The position numbers were made by a program, and so were the translations under genes. This document shows positions 1-19,631 of a stretch of DNA of 39,926 bases, one piece after another. Source of the DNA: Planctomycetia bacterium. GTDB lineage: Bacteria; Planctomycetota; Planctomycetia; Gemmatales; Gemmataceae. The notes below the pieces were generated by a model. It was given only the letters and a program-made list of their open reading frames with translations, searched no databases and was not told the DNA's origin. How positions within the stretch are numbered: position 1 is the first letter of the stretch; every line of letters begins with the position of its first letter. Location: the NCBI GenBank assembly GCA_005772955.1, contig SXID01000226.1:1-39926 (forward strand), in the 5' to 3' direction.

Positions 1-142
1 ATGGGTTCGCGGAAGGTCTCTTGGATTGATTGAGCCTTCTTCACCAGCCCGTAGCGCCAGCAAGGGCCGACGTCGGCCCTTGCTGGCGCTACGGGCTGGT
101 GAAGAAGGCTCAATCAATCCAAGAGACCTTCCGCGAACCCAT
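1..142. repeat. Perfect 142-bp palindrome at the window edge
   Basis: Bases 1-71 are the exact reverse complement of bases 72-142, with no spacer; the centre is CCGAC/GTCGG. The right arm contains the helicase stop codon (114-116) and its last codons, so the left arm is an inverted copy of that gene end. The core (about 48-95, CGTAGCGCCAGCAAGGGCC and its complement) looks like a natural intergenic hairpin, but the extension of both arms into coding sequence does not. Because it ends exactly at base 1, the fold-back may be an assembly or library artefact, or the visible half of a longer inverted duplication. Confidence 0.95.
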
Positions 143-2576
143 CGACCTCTTCACCAGGTTCGGGCACCTCCGGGGTCGTCGCAATGATCACCTTCGCGTG
201 TCCTTCGCCTTCGACAACGTCCGCGCCGTGAGAACGTTTGATCGCTACTTCCGTGCTGGTCGGATCAACGGCACGACAAATGTCCGTGAGACGGTCGGAC
301 ATCTCCGATAGCTCTTTCTTCCACTCCTCTTGTGTCAGACCTGGCGGGGTGAGTTGCTCGAACTCCTGCGTCAACAGGATGAGCCGCAACAGGTGCCGGA
401 ATATCAAGCCTTCCTGCTTCGTGAGGTCTTTGGTCGTCACGTAAGTGTTGAAGTTGCCGTAATTGATGACTTCGGCCGCGGCCCACACCGGCGTTGTGAC
501 GAAGTCGCCGACTTCGGGATACTTCGCATCGAAGAGCAGTCTCGCCTTGTCCGCGAGCACCGGCGGGCGCTCGTCCCACGGCACCCACTCCTCTTCCTCT
601 TCTTCCGCGCCTTCCACCTTCGGCACCTTCGCCACGATCAAGCCCTTCGCGATCAACTCGGGGTCGAGTTTCTCCGTTTGGAGCGGCCCCGGCGACAGCT
701 CCCACGGAACGCGCACAAACTTGAGTAACGGTCGCGGAAGCTCGAGAACGCTTTCAAGAAGTTGAAGCCGCTCCTCGCGGTTTGCGACGCCGAGCAAGTC
801 GGTGAGGAACGCCCCGTACAGCGGGTGGCAGGCGCGGAACACGAGTAGTTTGTCGAGTTCCGGTGTGGGTGTCGCGGTGACGGGGGCGTAAAGCGGTTCG
901 GAAGAACCTACCCCCCCGGCCCCCCTCCCTTCAGGGAGGGGGGAGACGGAACGGCTTTGCGCCGCGAGCGCCTCCTCAAGTGGAGTGAGCTTTCGTGATT
1001 GGTCTATCTCCCCCTTCCCTTCCGGGAGGGGGGCCGGGGGGGTAGGTTCTTCCACTGGAGGCGGAGGATCGAGAACCAGAAACCCATTCGCGTGCAACGT
1101 GACCAGCATCCGCGTGAGCTGCTTCATCCCGGCTTCGATGCGCGGCTGGTCGAGCAATCGCTTGCGGACCACGCTCCGAATCTTCTCCACGTCCGGTGAA
1201 ACTTTCAGCAAGTACGCGAGCAATCGCCACGGGAGCGGACCTTTGCTGTAAAGCCGACCTGCGGGCGCGTTCTTCAGTCGCTCGAAGTCCGCTTCGGTCC
1301 AGTACTTCTTCTGACTGTTGCGCGTCGGCTTCTTCTTGAGCAACGACTTCTTCGCCTTGAGCAAGCCAGGGTCTTTCGTGTTCTCCGGTATCTGGTCGAA
1401 CTGTTGCTTCCAGCGGAGGATGCGAACGTCGTCTTCCTCTGGGTACGCGAACACGTAGCCTTCGGTGTCGTACTGCGGGCGCCCGGCGCGCCCGAAGATC
1501 TGGTGCGCGGTACTCGCCTCTATCAGCTTCTCCTTGCCGAACGGCCCCTTCACGAGCGACGTGAGTACCACCGAGCGCGCCGGAAGATTGATCCCGGCCG
1601 CAAGCGTTTCGGTACACAGCGCGACGCTGAGCAGTTTCTTCTCGAATAGCTCCTCAACGGCACGGCGGTATTTCGGCAGCAATCCGGCATGGTGAACACC
1701 GACCCCGCGGCGGAGCATCTGCTTCAACTTCGGCCCGACGCCGTTGGGCCATTCGAGTTTGTCGCACTCCTTGTTGAGCGCGGCTTTCTGCGCCGCGTTC
1801 ATTAGCTCGAGTCCCTTCAGTTGCTCGGCGACGTTCCAGCACTCGTCGCGATTGAACGCAAACACCAGTGCCGGGGTCTTGCGGGTCGCGTCGTCGCCTT
1901 TCGCGATCTCCACAAGCAACTCGTTCAGGAACTGATCCGGCACCCAGCGATAAGTGAGTGGAATCTTCCGCTCCTTGCCCTCTACGAGTTCGATCTGCCG
2001 CCCGTGTTGGCGGTCGAGCCAGTTCGTGAACTCCACCGCGTTCCCGACAGTCGCCGACAGCAGCAGCAACCGGATATGTTTGGGAAGCATGTTGAGCGAC
2101 AGTTCCCACACGATCCCCCGTTCGGGGTCCGCGAAGCTGTGGAACTCGTCCATAACTACCGCGCTGGTGTGCGTGAAGTCGTAGCCGTCCGCGTGGAGCA
2201 GCCGATTCAGCAGGATCTCCGCGACGACGATCAGCACACGTGCGTTCGGGTTCACTCGCCGGTTGCCGGTCACTAACCCCACGTCCTCCGCTTTGAAGCC
2301 CCACCGGACCGCAGCGGCTTGCATCTCGCTGAACTTCTGCTCGGTGAGCGCGATGAGCGGCGTCGTGTAGTACGCGACGGTGTTCGTGTGGAGCGCCTCG
2401 AACAGCGCCGCGTGCGCGATGAGTGTTTTGCCGGTGCCGGTCGGCGCGCAGACCATCACGCCTTGCTCCGCTGTGAACCATGCCAGCAACGCCTCTTCCT
2501 GCACCGGGTACGGCGGATACGGGAGTTGGTCGATGTACTTCGACGCGAGTTCGGACCGGTTGTCGGATGCGCTCAT
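114..2576 (-). CDS. Ski2-like DExH-box superfamily 2 helicase
   Basis: ATP-dependent nucleic-acid helicase of 820 residues, presumably cytoplasmic. The motifs are all visible: Walker A APTGTGKT at residues 44-51, TTPLIALTEQKF at 71-82, DEFH (motif II) at 143-146, SAT at 174-176, TETLAAGIN (motif V) at 322-330 and GRAGRP (motif VI) at 362-367. This order and spacing fit the Ski2/Brr2/Mtr4-like group; substrate (RNA or DNA) cannot be told from sequence. The C-terminal half holds a proline- and glycine-rich segment at about 508-561 encoded by an inserted palindromic repeat, and an acidic run near 660. No Shine-Dalgarno sequence precedes the ATG; a TAAACT box lies 6 nt upstream, so the message may be leaderless. 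It is divergent from the oxidoreductase gene. Confidence 0.92.
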   Translation of the reverse strand: MSASDNRSELASKYIDQLPYPPYPVQEEALLAWFTAEQGVMVCAPTGTGKTLIAHAALFEALHTNTVAYYTTPLIALTEQKFSEMQAAAVRWGFKAEDVGLVTGNRRVNPNARVLIVVAEILLNRLLHADGYDFTHTSAVVMDEFHSFADPERGIVWELSLNMLPKHIRLLLLSATVGNAVEFTNWLDRQHGRQIELVEGKERKIPLTYRWVPDQFLNELLVEIAKGDDATRKTPALVFAFNRDECWNVAEQLKGLELMNAAQKAALNKECDKLEWPNGVGPKLKQMLRRGVGVHHAGLLPKYRRAVEELFEKKLLSVALCTETLAAGINLPARSVVLTSLVKGPFGKEKLIEASTAHQIFGRAGRPQYDTEGYVFAYPEEDDVRILRWKQQFDQIPENTKDPGLLKAKKSLLKKKPTRNSQKKYWTEADFERLKNAPAGRLYSKGPLPWRLLAYLLKVSPDVEKIRSVVRKRLLDQPRIEAGMKQLTRMLVTLHANGFLVLDPPPPVEEPTPPAPLPEGKGEIDQSRKLTPLEEALAAQSRSVSPLPEGRGAGGVGSSEPLYAPVTATPTPELDKLLVFRACHPLYGAFLTDLLGVANREERLQLLESVLELPRPLLKFVRVPWELSPGPLQTEKLDPELIAKGLIVAKVPKVEGAEEEEEEWVPWDERPPVLADKARLLFDAKYPEVGDFVTTPVWAAAEVINYGNFNTYVTTKDLTKQEGLIFRHLLRLILLTQEFEQLTPPGLTQEEWKKELSEMSDRLTDICRAVDPTSTEVAIKRSHGADVVEGEGHAKVIIATTPEVPEPGEEVDGFAEGLLD
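900..1053. repeat. REPIN-like double-hairpin element inside the helicase gene
   Basis: Two 30-bp arms (900-929 and 1024-1053) are exact reverse complements. Each is followed inward by its own small hairpin (CCCTCCC TTCA GGGAGGG on the left, CCTTCCC TTCC GGGAGGG-type on the right). Two REP-like units in inverted orientation around a spacer of about 90 bp is the layout of a REPIN. The element is in frame with the helicase and encodes PLPEGKGE and PLPEGRGAGG segments. The arms contain runs of six and seven guanines on one strand and could form G-quadruplex structure. A related 12-bp stem occurs at 39571-39599. Confidence 0.85.
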
Positions 2577-17119: not shown

Positions 17120-17178
17120 GACGAGCCGGAAGCGTTAGCGACTGATAGCTTGTCAGTCGCGGACACTTCCGGCTCGTC
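17120..17178. terminator. Two-part hairpin between convergent genes
   Basis: Outer arms 17120-17132 and 17166-17178 pair perfectly over 13 bp; inner arms 17138-17145 and 17153-17160 pair over 8 bp. It fills the space between the convergent ends of the PVC cytochrome and propeller genes. There is no T tract; a repeat-derived terminator is likely. Confidence 0.55.
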
Positions 17179-19497: not shown

Positions 19498-19559
19498 ATC
19501 AACTCCTGTTGGCATTTCGGCGCCAGACGGATGTGTTGCGCGCCTGTTGTTCAGAGCTT

Positions 19560-19621
19560 CTGTTTAGCGTTCGCCCTGGAGGGGCGTAGCGCCTCGCCCC
19601 GCCGGGGCGAACGCTAAACAG
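19560..19621. repeat. GTTTAGCG hairpin repeat, copy 2
   Basis: A perfect 17-bp stem (19560-19576 with 19605-19621) encloses a GC-rich loop that can form a second small stem (GGGGCG with CGCCCC). It lies between the DUF1592 stop and the DUF1552 start, inside a presumed operon, so it may act as partial terminator or mRNA-stabilising element. Confidence 0.8.
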
Positions 19622-19631
19622 ATAAGCCAAG

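Follow-up and report, generated by a model that had tools for sequence, protein, structure and literature searches.

C-rich palindromic repeats lie in frame in a helicase linker and other protein loops of a planctomycete genus and may derive from a DUF559 nuclease element

REP sequences are very common bacterial repeats. As REPINs they form dispersed inverted pairs with a low-copy RAYT gene adjoining the repeats, and to our knowledge the RAYTs are the known partner of REP sequences. Rickettsia palindromic elements (RPE) are translated in frame in many unrelated proteins.

Di Nocera et al. 2013 (PMC3733652) name RPE-1, RPE-4 and RPE-6 and state that RPE-1 proteins are expressed. They further describe GTAG and CGTC REPs inside open reading frames of several species, most REPs being intergenic, and the authors suggest that REPs are tolerated in linkers or loops. 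In recB of two Xanthomonas different REPs stand at about the same site, and in the GTAG superfamily the GTAG adjoins the stem at one end. Intragenic REPs, linker tolerance and different REPs at one recB site are thus already known from this source. Concerning the nuclease discussed below, published work assigns a DUF559 gene to the EDxHD homing endonucleases (PMC9403480, citing Taylor 2011), links DUF559 with the PD-(D/E)XK/Vsr-like group (PMC12907096), and describes for Legionella recombination between repeated segments which hold a transposase and DUF559 (PMC12308824).

We analyzed a contig of 39,926 nucleotides from a planctomycete draft genome; the window denotes this whole stretch. Near its start it carries a helicase gene with a pair of inverted arms:

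114..2576, minus strand: Ski2/Mtr4-like helicase gene, 820 aa, with the element in frame (open reading frame, Pfam, Foldseek); Pfam domains DEAD at residues 23-180 and Helicase_C at residues 289-367
1007..1053, minus strand: arm 1, N-terminal in the protein, residues 508-524, read as ..EEPTPPAPLPEGKGE (inverted repeat, translation)
900..946, minus strand: arm 2, C-terminal in the protein, residues 544-559, read as SPLPEGRGAGGVGSS (inverted repeat, translation)
920..943, no strand assigned: inner hairpin of arm 2, perfect 11-bp stem (920-930/933-943) with a 2-nt loop
1010..1033, no strand assigned: inner hairpin of arm 1, stem imperfect
947..1006, minus strand: inter-arm segment, host linker motif LTPLEEALAAQ, no repeat DNA (motif common to the arm-free helicases L083 and L084)

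A preliminary description of this DNA had noted two inverted in-frame arms of 30 bp with inner hairpins. The arms and both hairpins are there, but the inverted-repeat search of the window makes each arm 47 nt long, 91% complementary and separated by 60 nt, and only the hairpin of arm 2 is perfect. A chance hairpin at 900-1053 is ruled out: the net inverted-repeat score is 35, and 1000 mononucleotide shuffles reached at most 11. The coding-strand RNA of the element is predicted to fold with -124.2 kcal/mol (z -12.0 versus dinucleotide shuffles). Arm-encoded peptides are of the type EPTPPAPLPEGK or SPLPEGR.

By sequence and fold searches the helicase appears to be of the Ski2/Mtr4/Hel308 type; NCBIfam matches stay below their cut-offs, and the top Foldseek match is Mtr4 (6c90_A, E 2.3e-27, TM 0.57). 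The element takes up residues 508-559, C-terminal to the helicase core. The AlphaFold model, built with 23 sequences, has a mean pLDDT of 79.7, falling below 50 at residues 510-560, where a helix at 532-538 is modelled with low confidence. According to this model the segment holding the arms is a flexible interdomain linker, predicted disordered. The earlier view that the in-frame copy leaves the helicase gene open agrees with the intact reading frame.

The window holds further inverted repeats. At the start of the contig, positions 1-142 fold back perfectly over 71 bp (score 71); this stretch contains the palindrome CCCGTAGCGCCAGCAAGGGCCGAC, its complement and the helicase stop, and is probably an assembly fold-back at a repeat. 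A 90-bp inverted repeat (2593-2682, score 34) stands directly upstream of the helicase start codon. The palindrome at 17120-17178 (score 17), starting GACGAGCCGGAAGCGTTAGCGACTGA, resembles the family that L082 and L093 carry in their helicase linker, and another inverted repeat, starting TCTGTTTAGCGTTCGCCCTGGAGGGGCG, is found at 19559-19622 (score 22). The open reading frame at 4321-5583 matches WD40-type profiles (below the cut-off) and xylose-isomerase-like TIM barrel profiles.

We compared the helicase linker in 24 of 30 loci, the remaining six being without anchors; the relatives identified by name include records labelled Gemmata, Gemmataceae and Singulisphaera. By the orthologue alignment which the preliminary description had proposed, the arms are absent from several orthologues. 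Between the same anchors the linker measures 84 aa in L083 and L084, which come from genomes without arm matches, and 87 aa in the window helicase. The statement that the element adds about 50 residues was therefore too strong: a linker difference of up to 45 aa is seen only against distant relatives (L101: 42 aa). In L083 and L084 the central linker motif reads KPTLLEEALALQ; in the window the corresponding motif stands between the arms. Because the inter-arm motif is also present in these arm-free helicases, the spacer is host protein flanked by arms, and a single REPIN unit, as first described, is not supported.

The helicase of the related genome G001 has in-frame arms at the same two positions. 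Arm identity is 91-92% within the genome of the window and within G001 and 67-75% between the two species. To judge from these identities, the pattern fits arm replacement or concerted change in place, and two independent double insertions would be less economical. In G013 and G014 the same linker holds an unrelated palindrome.

The element is dispersed. A BLAST search against its own genome gave 88 match rows, window included, many of which represent one place on both strands. This agrees with the first classification as a REP-type dispersed palindrome; the contrary outcome, a segment conserved in distant orthologues with no DNA copies elsewhere, is not what we find. With a profile we catalogued at least 52 elements of at least 20 bits in the window and 42 fetched regions of the same genome. 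A genic copy served as seed for this catalogue, which is not complete, and the copy numbers are lower bounds, with 40 of 111 and 40 of 89 candidates scored in the initial searches. The elements include spaced pairs as well as collapsed palindromes of about 55 bp, and inverted pairs are common. Arm matches were obtained in 13 of 18 same-genus relatives and in three of 40 other genomes, with at most 15 candidates scored per genome. Four elements are located at contig edges of the draft genome (L036, L042, L049, L133); the C-rich repeat may break the assembly there.

The helicase copy had been regarded as exceptional, palindromes being usually intergenic. Instead, 17 of the 52 catalogued elements are strictly genic, that is, with a codon score on both sides, and five more are genic by orthologue alignment, so that at least 22 of 52 lie in open reading frames; 26 are without genic support and four are those at contig edges. 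Gene calling was crude, and the orthologue comparison is the stronger evidence for genic copies. The host genes encode a CCA-adding-like enzyme, polyprenyl synthetase, Lnt, a RarA-like ATPase, type III polyketide synthase, U32 peptidase, class V aminotransferase, 2-oxoacid dehydrogenase E2 and a MobA-like protein.

We then compared 20 sites covering 21 of the 22 genic elements (L052 was left out): the helicase, MobA with two elements, and 18 others. Four to six same-genus relatives were used per site and nine, of 29, for the palindrome count at the helicase site. The comparison drew on 99 gene-relative regions; matched pairs outside it include L035 and L046 for both G009 and G010, and L038 for G009, and the second batch was without G009. 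An inverted repeat was taken as significant at a score of at least 12 and p of at most 0.01 by mononucleotide shuffling. At 18 of the 20 sites at least one relative has a significant inverted repeat; counted by relative cells, 43 of 108 have a significant palindrome and 65 do not. The genome of the window itself passes this test at 15 of 19 scored sites. At the two sites where no relative passes (L039:5921 and L045:5221), it has a single weak arm.

At 13 of 20 sites there is a relative shorter by 9 aa or more. Judged by alignment, the element lies in frame in genes which have element-free orthologues, as is the case for RPE-like elements. At several sites the palindrome of the relative is of another subfamily; outside the helicase such differences were judged by eye from the peptides. 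The site in the CCA-adding-like enzyme illustrates this turnover, with 68 aa in the genome of the window, 20 in G002 and 18 in G010, and with other palindromes in G001 and G012. Long and collapsed forms occur at one and the same site at L045:2990 and at L046 (59 aa in the genome of the window, 34 aa collapsed in G001). In G009 the frame is interrupted by stops in four of eight regions, at or near the palindromic sites (L179, L191, L203, L219); these stops reflect either misread C-runs or genes that are truly disrupted. Six other relative rows have one stop each, outside the compared linkers.

One of the host genes contains a nuclease domain:

L136:2172-3341: MobA-like gene which includes, in frame and flanked by C-rich arms, a DUF559 nuclease domain

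This is the only DUF559 match in the genome of the window. Arms and DUF559 are shared with G001, and the site is short in G002 and G010. G007 and G012 have the REP-like peptide only, with a significant palindrome in G007 only.

In the genus we counted 19 strong DUF559 copies in 15 of 19 genomes, strong meaning more than 100 bits, a cut set after the match list had been viewed. Arms of the window family are found at 11 of these 19 copies. A palindrome adjoins all 19 if two criteria are admitted, inverted repeat or arm match: 15 copies by the inverted-repeat rule, which 236 of 2000 random placements in the window also pass, L352 by an inverted repeat at its true position, and L340, L342 and L344 by arm matches, those of L342 being weak (15-20 bits). 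Across the 19 genomes, 12 have both arms and strong DUF559, two arms only, three strong DUF559 only and two neither. By presence the link is thus loose. In 11 of the 12 genomes with both, a DUF559 copy adjoins the arms; the exception is G012, whose strong DUF559 has a palindrome of another kind beside it. In G010 and G015 arms occur together with only a weak DUF559 match. Inverted repeats bracket only six of the 19 genus loci.

Outside the genus we looked at 25 DUF559 loci from other genera of the class and at 12 plasmid loci from Cyanobacteria, Deinococcus, Alphaproteobacteria and Photobacterium. The latter were hand-picked out of 38 records for spread over phyla, leaving out clinical isolates and most other Azospirillum, Sinorhizobium and Sphingomonas hits. 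The first palindrome scan (260-bp span) found palindromes near nine of the 25 class loci and at 48 of 440 control placements (p 0.0014). With a bracketing test, whose threshold (score of at least 14) is post hoc since it was designed after the plasmid sequences had been examined, inverted repeats bracket DUF559 at 21 of 25 class loci and at seven of 12 plasmid loci. The corresponding controls are one of 264 random placements and none of 11 weak DUF559 domains, with 20 of 21 RAYT loci as positive control (of 28 RAYT loci, 21 were long enough). The 11 weak loci are a subset of the weak matches and still rank above random in bracketing score (rank test, p 0.0035).

A count of C/G-run hairpins was likewise made afterwards; it differs from the bracketing test and has its own controls. 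Such hairpins stand on both sides of DUF559 at 17 of 25 class loci, four of 12 plasmid loci and only three of 19 genus loci, some of those counted being generic G+C hairpins (e.g. upstream in L351 and L365). They occur in one of 264 random placements, none of 11 weak DUF559 loci, two of 174 gene edges, two of 21 RAYT loci and none of nine neighbouring plasmid genes. Searched against plasmids, the window element itself has no match. On the plasmids DUF559 stands between conserved operon genes, for example as sufB-DUF559-sufC, and in three Deinococcus plasmids (L389, L391, L396) it is found at differing positions of the 4-hydroxyphenylacetate (hpa) gene region.

Taken together, the repeats occur dispersed through the genome and keep the reading frame open; some relatives lack them or have shorter forms, and at certain sites the gene of a relative holds another palindrome. 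We suggest that the helicase linker carries a pair of C-rich REP arms, that palindromes of this kind lie in frame in protein loops throughout the genus and that they are non-autonomous derivatives of a DUF559 element, a reading to which we give a probability of roughly 55%. The autonomous element would consist of a DUF559 (EDxHD/Vsr-like) nuclease gene between two C-rich arms, and the C-rich elements would be MITE-like derivatives of it. Spread would proceed via nuclease-induced DNA repair, in the manner of homing endonucleases, and not via a RAYT transposase; DUF559 would thereby mobilise the repeats, including cutting, copying and insertion. Insertions which keep the frame in tolerant loops would survive purifying selection. 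The elements at a site could then expand, collapse to a short palindrome or be overwritten by another subfamily. Tentatively, this could be extended: stand-alone DUF559 proteins might be the mobility proteins of C-rich hairpin repeats in several phyla, with the C-rich REPINs as their non-autonomous copies, and the Gemmata-like planctomycetes might be a case in which insertions continuously enter genes in frame.

A different explanation does without a dedicated enzyme: the arms would spread by recombination, gene conversion and template switching at palindromes, and DUF559 would merely land in or near C-rich repeats. The helicases speak for it, as the arms of the window and of G001 occupy the same positions and belong to different subfamilies, which suggests overwriting in place; the long and collapsed forms at L046 and L045:2990 point the same way. 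Yet outside the genus, in other genera as well as on plasmids from other phyla, DUF559 is in part bracketed symmetrically by inverted arms, and such an arrangement looks more like an element with ends than like chance landing. In our view spread without an enzyme is rather unlikely.

Another reading takes the palindromes for typical REPINs that a RAYT (Y1 HUH) transposase mobilises, as in Pseudomonas; the preliminary description had suggested a search for such a partner, and RAYT-like matches do exist. The genome of the window has eight Y1 matches, six over the cut-off (PF01797 was searched in this genome only), and seven NF047646 (RAYT) matches, none over the cut-off; RAYT-like matches occur in 16 of 19 genus genomes, in 10 of them over the cut-off. 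However, the arm family is found at none of the own Y1 loci and at one of 28 RAYT loci of the genus, and in G007, a single contig, there are 54 arm match rows but no match to NF047646. The RAYT loci carry inverted repeats of their own, as the positive control shows, and only two of the 21 loci have C/G-run hairpins on both sides. GTAG is visible in four of the 20 RAYT loci having an inverted repeat. It does not adjoin the stem of the window arm, where CTAC at 908-911 lies 8 nt from the stem start at 920 and on the opposite side; at the position of this CTAC the arms of G001 and of MobA read CCCCTC or CCTCTC. We have set the RAYT aside as partner of the C-rich arms and regard this explanation as improbable.

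Slightly more improbable still is that the in-frame arms have been selected for protein function, for example as proline/glycine linkers. The arm hits do prefer one codon phase, which holds 18 of 21 forward and 20 of 22 reverse hits in the own genes and 50 of 57 forward and 38 of 45 reverse hits in the relatives, the hits being non-independent. But of the six frames of the arm consensus one forward and one reverse frame contain a stop, and part of the phase bias is due to this. Moreover, the same loops are short or have other peptides in relatives, and many unrelated enzymes carry arms. An assembly artefact that spliced a repeat into the helicase contig, to which the four elements at contig edges and the fold-back at the window start might point, is hardly credible given the in-frame palindrome of G001 at the same two helicase positions and in-frame palindromes at several of the sites in the single-contig genomes G002 and G007.

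If the DUF559 reading is true, a second, nuclease-based partner would provide the C-rich repeats of several phyla with a mobility protein open to testing, and DUF559 beside the repeats points to a possible new way for palindromic repeats to spread. The in-frame population further amounts to series of natural insertions in the same enzymes of different species, which can be used to study how protein loops are gained from mobile DNA.

As far as we found in the literature searched, which left most subscription papers outside, the turnover at shared sites across a genus and the pairing with DUF559 are new. With the EDxHD/Vsr-like homing endonucleases the system shares the protein family and the small stand-alone genes between conserved operon genes; it differs by the C-rich inverted hairpin arms and the population of short copies, and a link of DUF559 with REP sequences did not appear in that literature. 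Like the RPE, the planctomycete elements are palindromic and lie in frame inside many unrelated genes, but they belong to another phylum, have C-rich double-hairpin arms and are associated with DUF559; this comparison is one of features. In common with the GTAG and CGTC REPs they are found inside open reading frames, with differing repeats at a shared site, whereas here at least 22 of 52 are genic and the arm is without GTAG beside its stem. REPINs with their RAYT are similar in that inverted REP pairs are dispersed and an enzyme gene adjoins the repeats. Here, however, the neighbouring gene is DUF559 and not a Y1 transposase, and in the helicase copy host sequence stands between the arms.
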